A DNA stretch of 10,224 nucleotides from an uncultured Gammaproteobacteria bacterium. GTDB lineage: Bacteria > Pseudomonadota > Gammaproteobacteria > UBA9214. Location of the stretch: contig CAJQPV010000265.1 in NCBI GenBank assembly GCA_905480305.1, positions 1-10,224 of the forward strand, given 5' to 3'. Each line of letters begins with the position of its first letter. Positions within the stretch are counted from its first letter, which is position 1. Shown here piece by piece: positions 2-10,223 of the stretch. Position numbers and translations under genes: made by a program. Below the pieces are notes generated by a model that was not told the DNA's origin, ran no database searches, and saw only the letters and a program-made list of their open reading frames with translations.

Positions 2-1369
2 TTCGCTCCCGATATCTATCTGGAAGTTGTCACTATCACTGGCACACTGGCATGTCCGCAAATCGGGGGTGATGGACAGGCGCTTGAATATGCGGTGCGC
101 ATGCGACAGTTTCCTGACAATGGCTTGCTCAGCCAGCTGGCTACTCGCCAGGCACTGGAGACCGGGCATATTGATCAGTTAATTGAAACCGTCAGCGATT
201 TTCACCGGCATACGAACAAGGCAGACGATGATGATGATTTCGGAAACCCCGGGAAAATCCATCACTGGGTACGGGAAAACTTCCAGCATATACAACCCCT
301 GCTGACATCCATGAATGAAAAGGCAGATATCGAACAACTGCAGCACTGGTCAGAAAAAGAGTACACGCGGCTGATCACTGTATTGCAGCAACGCAAGCAG
401 ACAGGGGCTGTGCGCGAATGCCATGGCGACCTGCATCTTGGTAACATCACCCTGATCGATGGACGCGTCACCCCGTTTGACTGTATTGAGTTCAATCCTG
501 AATTGCGCTGGATCGATGTCGTTAGCGAAATAGCCTTTGTGCTGATGGATCTTGACGAGCGCGGCCTGCCCCGTTATTCCCACCGCTTTCTGAACGGTTA
601 CCTGCAGCAAACAGGCGATTATGCCGGACTGGCGGTATTACCGTATTACCTGGTATACCGTGCCATGGTGCGCGCCAAGGTAGCCAAACTGCGCTGTCAG
701 CAAACACAAACGGGAGCCACTGAGCATACGCAGGCAGAGGCTGAGTATCGGCAATACCTGCAACTGGCGCTGCGTTACACGGCACGACCCCGGGCCGTCA
801 TGGTGATTATGCGCGGCCTGTCCGGTTCCGGAAAATCCACTGTCGCCCGTAATCTCTGCGAACAGACAGGCATGATACAACTGCGCTCGGATGTCGAACG
901 CAAACGTCAGGCAGGACTGGCTGCCACTGATACCAGCCATTCCGGGATCGACAACGGTCTCTACAGCAGCGACAAAACAACAGAGACCTATCGGCAACTG
1001 GGCACATTGGCAAAATCCGTACTGGAAGCGGGCTATAGCGCACTGATTGATGCCACCTTCCTGAAGCGTCAGCACCGCGACCATTTCAGGGCGCAGGCAG
1101 CTGCGTCCGGGACCCCTTTCCTGATTATTGAATGTTTCGCACCAGACAACGAGCTTGAGCGCAGAATACTGACTCGTCAGGCCAGCCAGCGGGATGCTTC
1201 AGAGGCAACGCTTGAAGTACTGCACGCACAACAGGCAATCGATGAACCGCTCGGCGACGCAGAACAGCCGTATTTACTGCGCGCAGATACCCTGCAGACG
1301 GGTGATAAAAGCACCCCCGGCGCGTTCCTGCACTGGTTCACGAACCAGACCGGTGACCCTGTGGTCTGA
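2..1369 (+). CDS. Bifunctional APH-like kinase / P-loop ATPase protein (5' end missing)
   Basis: The reading frame is open to the left edge, and the residues before the first ATG (position 95) read like conserved family sequence (APDIYLEVV...EYAVRMRQF). That ATG is therefore internal and the true start lies outside the window. Numbering from the ATG at 95, residues 110-118 are HGDLHLGNI, the catalytic-loop motif of aminoglycoside-phosphotransferase/choline-kinase-like folds, followed by FDCIEFN where the metal-binding acidic motif is expected. A second domain begins near residue 235 with a Walker A motif, GLSGSGKST (241-249), and resembles small kinases of the AAA_33 or gluconate-kinase type. 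This two-domain arrangement is a known family often annotated 'bifunctional aminoglycoside phosphotransferase/ATP-binding protein'. The substrate is unknown, and the name should not be read as antibiotic resistance. It probably acts in the cytosol: no signal peptide or membrane segment is visible in the part seen. The stop is TGA at 1367-1369; no clear terminator follows. Confidence 0.85.
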   Translation, partial: FAPDIYLEVVTITGTLACPQIGGDGQALEYAVRMRQFPDNGLLSQLATRQALETGHIDQLIETVSDFHRHTNKADDDDDFGNPGKIHHWVRENFQHIQPLLTSMNEKADIEQLQHWSEKEYTRLITVLQQRKQTGAVRECHGDLHLGNITLIDGRVTPFDCIEFNPELRWIDVVSEIAFVLMDLDERGLPRYSHRFLNGYLQQTGDYAGLAVLPYYLVYRAMVRAKVAKLRCQQTQTGATEHTQAEAEYRQYLQLALRYTARPRAVMVIMRGLSGSGKSTVARNLCEQTGMIQLRSDVERKRQAGLAATDTSHSGIDNGLYSSDKTTETYRQLGTLAKSVLEAGYSALIDATFLKRQHRDHFRAQAAASGTPFLIIECFAPDNELERRILTRQASQRDASEATLEVLHAQQAIDEPLGDAEQPYLLRADTLQTGDKSTPGAFLHWFTNQTGDPVV

Positions 1370-4806: not shown

Positions 4807-5208
4807 TCAGTTATCGAGCAGGCCATCCAGCAGCATCTCCGCATAACCGATCATGCCCTGCAATTCGCCAGAACAAGTAACCGGCGCATAGGAAAACCCC
4901 AGCCGGCGAAAGAGGCGCGCACAATAACGAATATCCATTTCCGAATCGACACTCACTACCGGCTTGCTCATGATTTCATAAATATTGACCCGCTGCGGCG
5001 AACGGTCAACCGCCAGTACTTCCCGTGCAATATCGGAGAGCAGCACGATACCGTATTCATCATGCGCATGACGCTTGTCTACTATCAGCACAACAGAACC
5101 CGAGGACTTCATTATAGACAGCGCCTCGTTAACCATCATCAACCCGTCCACCAACTGGTAGTTGTTCGTCATAACATCCTTGACACGCACGGGTTCGATT
5201 GCACTCAC
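4807..5208 (-). CDS. Two-CBS-domain protein
   Basis: The 133-residue soluble protein is made of two CBS repeats and little else. CBS1 covers about residues 9-66 (VKDVMTNNYQLVDG...YGIVLLSDIAREV) and CBS2 about 75-131 (IYEIMSKPVVSVDSEMDI...APVTCSGELQGMIGYAEML). CBS pairs (Bateman modules) commonly bind adenine nucleotides such as AMP, ATP or c-di-AMP and gate attached or neighbouring transporters and enzymes. The start is GTG at 5208, overlapping the TGA of the P-II-like gene by four bases (GTGA), with GGAAGA (5215-5220) six bases upstream. The overlap implies translational coupling. As last gene of the DUF1538 operon it is a plausible energy-charge sensor for the membrane proteins, but no interaction is shown by the sequence. 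The gene ends convergent with the RND exporter, with 106 bases between them and no clear terminator hairpin. Confidence 0.85.
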   Translation of the reverse strand: MSAIEPVRVKDVMTNNYQLVDGLMMVNEALSIMKSSGSVVLIVDKRHAHDEYGIVLLSDIAREVLAVDRSPQRVNIYEIMSKPVVSVDSEMDIRYCARLFRRLGFSYAPVTCSGELQGMIGYAEMLLDGLLDN

Positions 5209-5555
5209 AGCTTGTCTTCCACCGCATCTTGCAATTTGCTGATTTGCCGATTGACACCGACTATATCTTCAACATCCAGCTGGAAGGCAATGCCGGCCCC
5301 CGGGGAATCCTCGAACTTCCCGACTTCAGCGATGTGTTCGATAACTTTCCGACTCAGATGCTCCTCGACAAGAAACATCAGCATATCCCGCGCCGTTTCC
5401 AGCTCAAGACCAAAAAAAGTCTTGACGGTTTCAATACCCTCTCCGCGCACCTGGTTAACCACCGTCGCTCCGGTTGCGCCGGCACTACGCGCCGCCTGCA
5501 TCAGCTTGTCTGTCTTTTCATCCTCTACCAGCGCAATAATAAGTTTGAAGTGCAT
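5205..5555 (-). CDS. Divergent P-II-like regulatory protein
   Basis: The 116-residue product has the size and layout of GlnB/GlnK-type proteins. Strand 1 is FKLIIALV (3-10) and helix 1 is EDEKTDKLMQAARSAGATGATVV (11-33), where the ATGATVV part matches the conserved GITGMTV region. VRGEG (36-40) starts the T-loop, a further strand is MLMFLV (58-63), and VGKFEDSPGAGIAFQLDV (78-95) stands where the B-loop lies. The T-loop is short and lacks the tyrosine of the YRG(A/S)EY uridylylation motif, and the TGKIGDGKIF signature is altered, so classical GlnD control is unlikely. P-II-like trimers bind nucleotides and small effectors and often gate membrane transporters encoded beside them. I chose the ATG at 5555, nine bases after GAGAGG (5565-5570); a TTG at 5561 would leave only three bases. 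The gene overlaps the CBS gene by four bases and follows the second DUF1538 gene after about 100 bases. Confidence 0.8.
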   Translation of the reverse strand: MHFKLIIALVEDEKTDKLMQAARSAGATGATVVNQVRGEGIETVKTFFGLELETARDMLMFLVEEHLSRKVIEHIAEVGKFEDSPGAGIAFQLDVEDIVGVNRQISKLQDAVEDKL

Positions 5556-5564
5556 AATCAATTA

Positions 5565-5570
5565 CCTCTC
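5565..5570 (-). promoter_or_regulatory. Ribosome-binding site that decides the P-II-like start
   Basis: On the - strand this reads GAGAGG. It lies nine bases before ATG 5555 and only three before the in-frame TTG at 5561, which favours the ATG and a 116-residue protein. Confidence 0.6.
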
Positions 5571-5657
5571 TGAAAAAACTCAACGGTGCCGGGATTTTTC
5601 CTTGCTAAACGCCGTATATTTAATCGTGCAAACAGCACGTCCTGCTGCCTCTTTAGC

Positions 5658-6473
5658 CTAATAATCATCGTTGTCCCTGGCTGCTTTCAGCCGCCGCTTT
5701 CTGTGCAAATTCCTGCGCACACGCCATTCACCCAGCTGCGCATAGCCCATCACTGCCATAATAGGAAATAAACTGGCGAATGCGATCAGGCCAAAACCAT
5801 CAATCAACGCACTGCGCCCCGGAATATTACTGGCAAGCCCGAGACCAAGCGCGGTAACCAGTGGCACGGTAACGGTAGAGGTAGTCACACCACCTGAATC
5901 ATAGGCCAGCGCGACAATCATACGCGGCGCATACAGGGTTTGAATAATGACGACAACATAGCCGGAGATAATATAGTAATGCAGCGGTGTACCCGTGACG
6001 ATTCGAAAAGCACCCAGGGCAATACCGACAGCCACGCCAACGGCCACAGCCACGCGCAGCCCCCATACTGTGACAGCGCCGCCTGATACCTGCTGTGCCT
6101 TGATGGCAACTGCAATCAGTGCCGGCTCGGCCACCGTTGTAGAAAAACCTATCGCTGCAGCAAACAGGTAAACCCAGGCATAGTCATCCCATTGCAAACT
6201 ACCTGAAACCACCCCGGCTGCCTGCTTGATAAAACCCGGATCAGTCAGCTGCTGTGCCATCAGCTTTCCAATTGGAAACAATGCCACCTCCAGCCCCACC
6301 AGGAACAGCGTCAATCCAATCAGCACGTAGAGAAACCCGAATAGCACCCGTTTCAGCTTGTTAATTCTCTGTCGCAGCACCAGCAGCTGAAAGCCAAAAA
6401 TAATAAGCACGATCGGCAACACATCAGTGATCGTCGACAAGCCGGTTTCCAGGATTTTTTGCAGCAATGCCAT
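5658..6473 (-). CDS. DUF1538 integral membrane protein, second copy
   Basis: The 271-residue hydrophobic protein has about six or seven membrane segments (for example 18-33, 43-60, 100-116, 138-156, 166-182 and 226-243). It carries the DUF1538 hallmark motifs: GFSTTVAEPAL (109-119), [20 protein letters not shown] (191-210) and [11 protein letters not shown] (225-235). The function of DUF1538 is not established to my knowledge; the conserved Gly/Thr/Pro/acid motifs inside the membrane look like a transporter's substrate or ion path. It is a paralogue of the gene just upstream and shares 21 consecutive identical residues with it (190-210 here). It differs by a strongly basic tail (about 251-266, RVRRNLHRKRRLKAAR), which could be a docking site for a soluble partner. 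The ATG overlaps the upstream gene's stop by one base (TGATG), so translation is likely coupled. About 100 bases separate it from the P-II-like gene. Confidence 0.87.
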   Translation of the reverse strand: MALLQKILETGLSTITDVLPIVLIIFGFQLLVLRQRINKLKRVLFGFLYVLIGLTLFLVGLEVALFPIGKLMAQQLTDPGFIKQAAGVVSGSLQWDDYAWVYLFAAAIGFSTTVAEPALIAVAIKAQQVSGGAVTVWGLRVAVAVGVAVGIALGAFRIVTGTPLHYYIISGYVVVIIQTLYAPRMIVALAYDSGGVTTSTVTVPLVTALGLGLASNIPGRSALIDGFGLIAFASLFPIMAVMGYAQLGEWRVRRNLHRKRRLKAARDNDDY

Positions 6474-7204
6474 CAGATAATCATGCCGTAGCCCAGCACA
6501 AATATAATCGGCGTTAACGAAGCAAAGGCAATCAGCCCAAAACCGTCAATCATCGGGTTGCGTCCCTTGATACTGCTCGCCAGGCCTACACCCAGCGCTG
6601 TAACCAGCGGCACTGTCACCGTCGACGTGGTCACGCCACCCGAATCATAGGCAATGCCGATAATCTCCGGCGGGGCAAAAAACGTCATTATCACTACGCC
6701 GGCATAACCGCCCATGATCAAATACTGGATTGGCCAGCCACGGATAATACGGAACACACCGACTACGATAGCCACGCCCACCGAAAAAGCCACAGTCAAC
6801 CTGAGTCCAAGCGCATAGTTCGCCATCACTGCCTTGTCGTCCGCAATTGCCCCCTCACGTGCGGCAATAATAGCGGCCTTTGCTGTAACTGCCGTCAGCG
6901 CAGGTTCGGCAATGGTAGTACCAAACCCCAGCGCAAAGGCAAACAGCAGCAACCAGAACACATTACCCTTGCGAGCAAAGGCATTGGCAATGGATTCACC
7001 TATTGGGAACAGTGCCTGCTCCAGACCACGAATAAAAAAGGTAAGCCCGAAAATGACCAGCATAAAACCTGTCAGAATTCTGCCGAAGTCAGGCACCGGC
7101 TGCCTGATTACAAATATCTGGAAAAACGCTACCACCAGAATAATTGGCAGCAAGTCACGAAAGCTTGATAACAAAGAACCGGCAAATACTCGTAGTTGTT
7201 CCAA
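6473..7204 (-). CDS. DUF1538 integral membrane protein, first copy
   Basis: The 243-residue protein is the first gene of the operon. Hydrophobic segments lie at about 18-33, 43-60, 83-98, 130-150, 160-178 and 224-243. The DUF1538 motifs are [11 protein letters not shown] (93-103), [20 protein letters not shown] (186-205) and [11 protein letters not shown] (220-230). It pairs with the downstream paralogue, and a heterodimer or a split version of a two-domain protein is likely. The substrate is unknown. The best start is TTG at 7204: CGGAG lies five bases upstream and no in-frame ATG exists before the first membrane helix. A TTG start may hold down the level of this subunit. The stop overlaps the next ATG by one base. 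Control may come from the FNR-type box at 7402-7415. Confidence 0.87.
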
Positions 7205-8984: not shown

Positions 8985-10223
8985 CTAGTTCAAACGTATT
9001 CGTTTGAACCTGGATTTCACTCGCTGGATAAATGACTGGTTTTTATAGGCGCGCATGGAAGCAGCCTCCATGACCTTGCCATCATCATCCATTTTCGAGA
9101 GTTTCGCCTTGTTCCAGGTGATGACGTTTTCCCCGGTAGCGGCACGTACCGGCCGCAGTGGATCTGCCCCCAGCGTACCGACCAGTTCATTCAGATAATC
9201 CGGGTTTGAGACCATTGCCAGCTTCTGTACCGCCACGTCCAGGCGGGCAGAAATACCGAGACGCCGGGCTTCATCGGCATAATCAGCATCATCAAGGAAT
9301 TGATTCAGGGTATCCACGTGACGAGTCCACATGGCAATATCGCGTTGTTGTTTGATCTCGAGACGTTCCTTGTACCAGTCTGATGCCAGCAGATTATCGC
9401 GTGTAAACAACGCGCGGAACTCGGCATGATGCACATCCATCCCCAGGTACTTGCCTGTCGCCATGATGATCAGCAGGGCCTGTAACGGCGGACAGGCATC
9501 TTCAATACTGCCATCTTCAAGATATTGCAGCGCGACACGCTGCTGCGCCTCAACAATGTTATGAATGCCATCAACATAGGATTCCATATCCTGTGTCTCC
9601 GGCTTCAAAATAGCCTCTGTGAAAACGGCGCCTGGATTGTCAAATATCTTGCCGAAGAATCCATGCACAAAATGCTCGGTAATACGAAAACCCAGACGAC
9701 TCGCCATCACCGGCTTGCCGTTGTGCTCAAAGTCTTCAAGTCGTTCGAGATAACCATGTTCCCTAAGGTATTCCGGAGTACGCTCCTCAACGGACAGCCG
9801 CGCCCATATTTCCGGCACCAGCAGGCTGATGTCATGATCAACCCGCACTTCCGGGCCAACATAACCGGCCGAGCTGGAGAATCCTGCATGGCCGGTCAGG
9901 ATATATGAAACCAGTGCATTGTTGAGATCCGCCGTGGTCCGCAGTGCGTTAAACGGACCCTTGGTCAGCGCACCCTCGCTACCGGCACCCGTGGTTGACG
10001 GTGACTTGCCAGTGAGACTGCAAATGAAGTCCATAAACAGTTCCGGCAGTTGCTGATAGTGAATCGGGTTATACACTGCCAGCGAACGAATACCCGGCTC
10101 CGGAGGATTGTTGCGCCGCCCGGTCAGCACCGCATCAACCGGATGACAAACAGTCGCATCAACTGCCAGCTTGCGATGAAAACGTGTACTCATTTCAGCA
10201 ATGTACTTGCGAGAAGGCTTCAC
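8985..10223 (-). CDS. PPi-type phosphoenolpyruvate carboxykinase-like protein, C-terminal part
   Basis: About 412 residues are visible, and the frame is still open at the right edge, so the start is outside; the GTG at 10223 should not be taken as the start. Residues 70-94 of the visible part (LTGKSPSTTG then AGSEGALTKGPFNAL) and RTTADLNNALVSYILTGHAGFSSSAGYVGP, followed by VDHDISLLVPEIW (about 128-140), resemble the large pyrophosphate-dependent PEP carboxykinases (about 1,100 residues, known from Propionibacterium and Entamoeba). Those interconvert PEP, CO2 and phosphate with oxaloacetate and pyrophosphate. The assignment rests on my recollection of family motifs; the alternative is an uncharacterised paralogue that lost activity. 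The protein is cytosolic, with no membrane segment. It ends in a basic tail (VKSRFKRIRLN). A perfect 9-bp inverted repeat overlaps the last codons, and the small zinc-ribbon gene follows after 18 bases. Confidence 0.65.
   Translation of the reverse strand: MKPSRKYIAEMSTRFHRKLAVDATVCHPVDAVLTGRRNNPPEPGIRSLAVYNPIHYQQLPELFMDFICSLTGKSPSTTGAGSEGALTKGPFNALRTTADLNNALVSYILTGHAGFSSSAGYVGPEVRVDHDISLLVPEIWARLSVEERTPEYLREHGYLERLEDFEHNGKPVMASRLGFRITEHFVHGFFGKIFDNPGAVFTEAILKPETQDMESYVDGIHNIVEAQQRVALQYLEDGSIEDACPPLQALLIIMATGKYLGMDVHHAEFRALFTRDNLLASDWYKERLEIKQQRDIAMWTRHVDTLNQFLDDADYADEARRLGISARLDVAVQKLAMVSNPDYLNELVGTLGADPLRPVRAATGENVITWNKAKLSKMDDDGKVMEAASMRAYKNQSFIQRVKSRFKRIRLN
8988..9009 (-). repeat. Perfect 9-bp inverted repeat at the 3' end of the PEPCK-like gene
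   Basis: GTTCAAACG (8988-8996) and CGTTTGAAC (9001-9009) flank a four-base loop; the repeat covers the last seven sense codons and touches the stop codon. No run of T follows on the - strand, so it is not a standard intrinsic terminator. The distal arm can alternatively pair with TCAAAC (- strand, 8982-8977) beside the next gene's ribosome-binding site. It may be an RNA stability, processing or coupling element between the two genes, or a protein-binding palindrome. Confidence 0.55.

Follow-up and report, generated by a model that had tools for sequence, protein, structure and literature searches.

UmpAB-like DUF1538 membrane proteins are encoded with a distinct branch of PII-like proteins and a CBS pair, candidate regulators of a probable cation/proton antiporter

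The window analysed here is a stretch of 10,224 nucleotides from contig C265 (CAJQPV010000265.1) of an uncultured gammaproteobacterium, whose genome assembly is incomplete (76.78% complete). Between positions 7204 and 4807 it carries four minus-strand genes in the operon order umpA-umpB-PII-CBS (Table 1), and all four encoded proteins exceed the gathering scores of their Pfam families (e.g. 22.6 bits for PF07556 and 25 bits for PF00543). The tight gene order of the original prediction was found exactly as described, including the single base shared by umpA and umpB (TGATG) and the 4-base overlap of the PII stop with the CBS start (GTGA); only the PII start was amended. The ORF table lists the PII frame as 5561-5205, with a TTG at 5561 that adds two residues to the frame starting with the ATG at 5555. 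The latter start (MHFKL...) is more likely, because the resulting length of 116 aa is that of 120 closest relatives among the matches listed, and it leaves a gap of 102 bases downstream of umpB. Since the identical order recurs in other genomes, the four-gene arrangement is not due to chance. Elsewhere in the window, an APH-like kinase region joined to an AAA_33 P-loop kinase domain is encoded at 2-1369 (plus strand), and a 412-aa minus-strand frame (8985-10223), open at the window end, had no Pfam match at E 0.1 and just one NCBIfam row, far under its cut-off.

Table 1. The four genes of the DUF1538 operon in the window.
Feature	Coordinates	Strand	Properties
umpA-like DUF1538 membrane subunit	6473..7204	-	243 aa, TTG start; PF07556 231.0 bits
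umpB-like DUF1538 membrane subunit	5658..6473	-	271 aa, basic C-terminal tail; PF07556 226.1 bits
PII-like protein, DUF1538-linked branch	5205..5555	-	116 aa, ATG at 5555; PF00543 51.6 bits
Stand-alone CBS pair	4807..5208	-	133 aa, GTG start; PF00571 53.9 bits, two stretches

DUF1538 had been taken to be without an established function, which is no longer tenable: UmpA and UmpB of Halomonas zhaodongensis reportedly form a hetero-dimer that acts as a Na+(Li+,K+)/H+ antiporter (PMC5484666). The Halomonas genes were found via a 4.2-kb clone in E. coli KNabc, for which the account of the clone lists no ORF after umpB, and E. coli co-expressing umpA and umpB gained antiport (PMC5484666). That co-expressed umpAB gave antiport fits a regulatory, not an essential, role of PII and CBS. 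UmpAB homologues are cited as salt adaptation in papers on cable bacteria (PMC10030654, PMC12093952), and a table of pH-adaptation Pfam families has DUF1538 beside parts of Mrp, Trk and Kdp (PMC13255231). The window proteins clearly match the NCBIfam models of both subunits, with 355.3 bits for UmpA (NF041627, equivalog cut-off 490) and 341.3 bits for UmpB (NF041628, cut-off 500). As both scores lie below the equivalog cut-offs, we refer to the pair as UmpAB-like rather than UmpAB. UmpA of 10 related loci likewise fell under the NF041627 cut-off, and in a class-wide search with the UmpA model 123 of 377 genomes matched, none of which reached it. Named relatives of the window UmpA are mostly gammaproteobacterial, and its predicted structure has a mean pLDDT of 92.4. 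The window pair presumably moves the same ions as Halomonas UmpAB.

Gene neighbourhoods were compared in 80 named loci, the best 80 of 587 confirmed; these contain the closest UmpA proteins and are therefore biased to close relatives. They include Vibrio, Photobacterium, Colwellia, Shewanella, Methylophaga, Sedimenticola, Thiobacillus, Gallionellaceae and a cable bacterium. Within these best 80 of 587, PII adjoins DUF1538 at 77 loci (the other three lie at a contig edge), and CBS is present at 74; five loci end at a contig edge, and a single one, in a Pseudodesulfovibrio MAG (L145), truly lacks CBS despite having room for it. The 4-base PII/CBS overlap is kept in 61 of the 80. Further loci were chosen by hand, some for their odd looks: 31 from relatives, 40 from the phylum (with 43 DUF1538 clusters), 20 from the class, five from plasmids and two from the window's own genome, the window itself being left out. 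With the named loci included, PII is adjacent in 168 of 181 DUF1538 clusters; seven of the others are at contig edges, and six (L063, L200, L202, L207, L238 and L243) have room yet no adjacent PII. CBS is missing from many loci of other classes. The outer neighbours vary, the largest family accounting for 17 of 632 flanking ORFs at 178 loci. The recurrence of PII and CBS beside DUF1538 in distant genomes, on which the original prediction had been staked, was thus observed and supports its reading as an ion transporter of two subunits whose PII and CBS neighbours are conserved; PII proved a near-constant partner of DUF1538, while the same constancy did not hold for CBS, which is missing in some lineages. 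One genome (G396) has a lone umpA-like gene (L243 4084-4818), with umpB-like, PII and CBS genes on another contig (L244 3481-5005).

The components are combined in several architectures. In the window's own class, every split locus with PII and sufficient room, a single one excepted, combines the split DUF1538 pair with both PII and CBS; the combination also occurs at some loci of other classes. The split pair with PII and without CBS occurs in 11 phylum clusters, in L145 and on two alphaproteobacterial plasmids. A fused DUF1538 pair of about 500 aa with PII and CBS also occurs, and two loci (L235 3302-5575 and L236 3823-6083) have the permuted order PII-CBS-fused DUF1538, whereas the transporter usually comes first. 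Fused pairs of about 600 aa are accompanied by at least two PII genes in 13 clusters, one of them in the window's own genome. Three clostridial plasmids carry a fused pair with one tandem PII, in which two Pfam P-II stretches were recognized in the two tested. DUF1538 and PII thus stay linked where the transporter genes are fused, where PII is in tandem, where the order is permuted and where CBS is lacking, and two soluble modules are supplied in many arrangements, though not in all. The second system of the window's own genome (L007 22-2518, contig C160) has a fused DUF1538 pair of 594 aa and, after it, two divergent PII-like genes, both of which share 4 bases with the gene before them; another UmpB-like gene lies near a contig end in the same genome (L006 132-908, contig C274), its downstream partners being out of view. 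DUF1538 is also encoded by six unannotated phage-named records (four from gut samples, two from Listeria), which may be bacterial DNA.

To place these loci in an unselected sample, we sampled 299 genomes evenly across the phylum and scored PII as linked-type when it matched alignment A6 at E <= 1e-14 (8 of the 24 A6 rows come from sampled genomes). DUF1538 was found in 82 and linked PII in 85 of the 299 genomes (37 and 38 of 181 in genus tallies). All 82 DUF1538 genomes had linked PII, as compared with three (G077, G159 and G163) of the 217 genomes without DUF1538, an association with a Fisher P of 1e-70, which is inflated because the genomes are related. Among the 79 DUF1538 loci listed, from 73 of the 82 genomes, 75 had linked PII within 2.2 kb, and one of the remaining four lies at a contig edge. 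Conversely, 75 of the 111 linked-type PII matches adjoin a listed DUF1538 and 26 do not; the other 10 belong to genomes whose DUF1538 positions fall outside the matches listed. We inspected 19 of the 26 non-adjacent genes: five adjoin a fused DUF1538 outside the matches listed, two sit with CBS only, and 12 lack both DUF1538 and CBS as immediate neighbours, although in one of the 12 (G170) DUF1538 is about 3.5 kb away. In G138 and G169, the PII-CBS pair lies together on a different contig from umpAB. Next to some of the solitary genes are an amino acid kinase, GCS2, or Dus together with histidine kinase and sigma-54 activator genes (by Pfam, in representatives), which suggests that the branch was recruited elsewhere in a few families. 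The stretches L280-L283 and L288-L295 hold linked-type PII with no DUF1538 in the fetched sequence, some of them with the neighbours just named and L292 beside MutS; they possibly represent a different use of the branch.

For phylogenetic analysis of the PII proteins, we used 71 rows: 48 linked proteins (the window PII and 47 representatives of 185 domains), 20 GlnB/GlnK and three others. We dropped the comparator L272, because the frame extracted from it was not that of PII, and comparators L259, L264 and L270 were unused. All 48 linked proteins fall on one side of a branch with support of 99/98, recovered in 98% of bootstrap trees. The inner order of the tree is unsure owing to the few columns, and unsampled PII proteins could fall inside the linked branch, as the profile used to gather the linked rows had been built up from the window PII. 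At Q39, Y51, D88, K90, R101 and R103, which we take to be ligand-binding or modification residues of GlnB/GlnK, the window PII has E, T, A, I, G and N. These residues are kept in 5, 2, 2, 0, 0 and 4 of the 48 linked proteins respectively, as against all six in 20 of 20 GlnB/GlnK comparators. The original prediction of two adenylate sensors must be viewed with caution: most linked PII proteins no longer have the canonical residues for nucleotides and 2-oxoglutarate, so that the PII ligand may not be an adenylate. The T-loop of the linked proteins is shorter; in the window's clade, a KTFFGL-like hydrophobic motif replaces the GlnB/GlnK T-loop, and a loose form of this pattern occurs in 23 of the 48, most of them from the split and 500-aa groups. 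The window's genome encodes two further proteins with strong PF00543 matches, and each of ten other genomes has at least one, so that the DUF1538-linked PII need not be the nitrogen sensor of the cell.

The window CBS protein consists of two CBS repeats (PF00571), and its closest solved chain is CBS-CP12 (5nmu, E 2.1e-32). In repeat 1, the Asp of the G-h-x-T/S-x-x-D motif (D59) is invariant in 13 CBS sequences; at the corresponding position of repeat 2, the window protein has Glu. Ligand binding by the pair is plausible.

The observed gene content, linkage, separate branch and lost residues strengthen the central idea of a largely transporter-dedicated PII branch. We consider it probable that an UmpAB-type antiporter is gated by this PII, with CBS taking part in many lineages; the docking, gating, ligands and substrate are what we infer. 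In such a scheme, the operon would encode a cation/proton antiporter of two homologous membrane halves, from a little-studied family, together with its dedicated regulators. PII, presumably a trimer like other PII proteins, would dock on the cytoplasmic face of UmpAB via its shortened T-loop, and the small molecule bound to it would decide whether the antiporter opens or closes, with the CBS pair adding a second, probably nucleotide-dependent input. A broader version is somewhat short of an even bet: DUF1538 antiporters in general may be gated by two soluble modules (PII and CBS, two PII, or tandem PII) or by PII alone, through a near-obligate and widespread PII branch that the papers searched do not describe, with a ligand other than the classical pair of ATP and 2-oxoglutarate, which would tie ion exchange to cell energy or another metabolite.

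Several other explanations were weighed. The DUF1538 pair could carry another substrate, such as bicarbonate or a dicarboxylate, with PII and CBS still acting as gates and the Halomonas antiport being specialized or a side activity. This would agree with the scores below the UmpAB equivalog cut-offs in the window and throughout the matching genomes of the class, with the regulation of a bicarbonate transporter by SbtB (PMC8352866, PMC10710835), and with a Foldseek search of the fused model, in which VcINDY divalent anion symporters came out on top (best E 0.0048, TM 0.2) and EAAT rows appeared too. However, no Foldseek match reached E <= 0.001, cation/proton antiport is the only biochemistry seen for the family (PMC5484666), and DUF1538 keeps company with Mrp, Trk and Kdp parts in the pH-adaptation table (PMC13255231); we regard another substrate as unlikely.

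We give a little less credence still to PII and CBS not being gates, and instead informing other targets of how active the transporter is or of the ion and energy state, with the operon serving co-regulation. The linked-type PII genes at other loci and the PII-CBS pairs away from umpAB in G138 and G169 would suit such a role, but the near-perfect co-occurrence with DUF1538 in both directions and the retention of the partners in permuted gene order argue against it. Finally, PII and CBS might sense cyclic di-AMP, like some Gram-positive transporters and PstA/DarA. CBS pairs and PII-like proteins are described elsewhere as binding this nucleotide, and the tandem-PII form is found in Clostridia; against this, the diadenylate cyclase family PF02457 was absent from 19 of 20 non-clostridial genomes that carry DUF1538 systems, among them the incomplete genome of the window (the exception is G110); we regard cyclic di-AMP sensing as highly improbable.

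Textbooks present PII proteins as sensors of nitrogen and carbon. If the linked PII does gate the transporter, ion and pH balance would be coupled to a metabolic signal through a dedicated PII branch that controls cation/proton antiport, and many genes named only 'P-II family nitrogen regulator' or 'DUF1538' would gain a function and a physical partner. The data also caution against reading DUF1538-linked PII genes as nitrogen regulators, and the recurrent partners in many bacteria make control of the DUF1538 exchanger testable.

Within the literature searched (open-licence PMC papers only), we did not find a link between DUF1538 and PII among the matches listed, which for two queries were 20 of 504 and 12 of 31. 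The text of the Halomonas UmpAB paper contains neither 'PII', 'P-II' nor 'CBS' (PMC5484666); PII words are likewise absent from the DUF1538-mentioning papers PMC5996927 and PMC6055358 and from the cable-bacteria papers PMC10030654 and PMC12093952, and 'P-II' is absent from PMC13255231. A PII word match in PMC7221264 was part of a peptide motif, not the protein. In the rows shown of a 2023 review on transporter control, the PII targets are AmtB, Amt1, Nrt, Urt and SbtA, and the same excerpts mention neither UmpA, UmpB nor DUF1538 (PMC10710835).

PII proteins that plug transporters are known from GlnK-AmtB and SbtB-SbtA (PMC8352866, PMC10710835). As in the window, GlnK is a PII family protein encoded beside a transporter; in contrast, the window PII lacks the GlnK T-loop, differs at all six ligand residues and lies on a separate branch. 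SbtB is also PII-like, encoded beside its transporter and docked by its T-loop, but SbtA belongs to another transporter family and the descriptions at hand mention no CBS partner; this comparison is by description, not by SbtB sequence. In a PDB chain profile search with the window PII, none of the 32 chains at E <= 0.01 was named SbtB. CBS-CP12 shares the CBS pair and is its best solved match, whereas the window protein (133 aa as against 208 aa) is without the CP12 part and is encoded with PII and the DUF1538 pair. Halomonas UmpAB, as described, consists of two homologous membrane subunits in the order A-B whose genes share one base, as in the window, but the window proteins stay under both equivalog cut-offs. 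A PII beside the transporter that it may gate is of a known kind; new as a set, within the literature searched, is the combination of this transporter family with this PII branch and a CBS partner.
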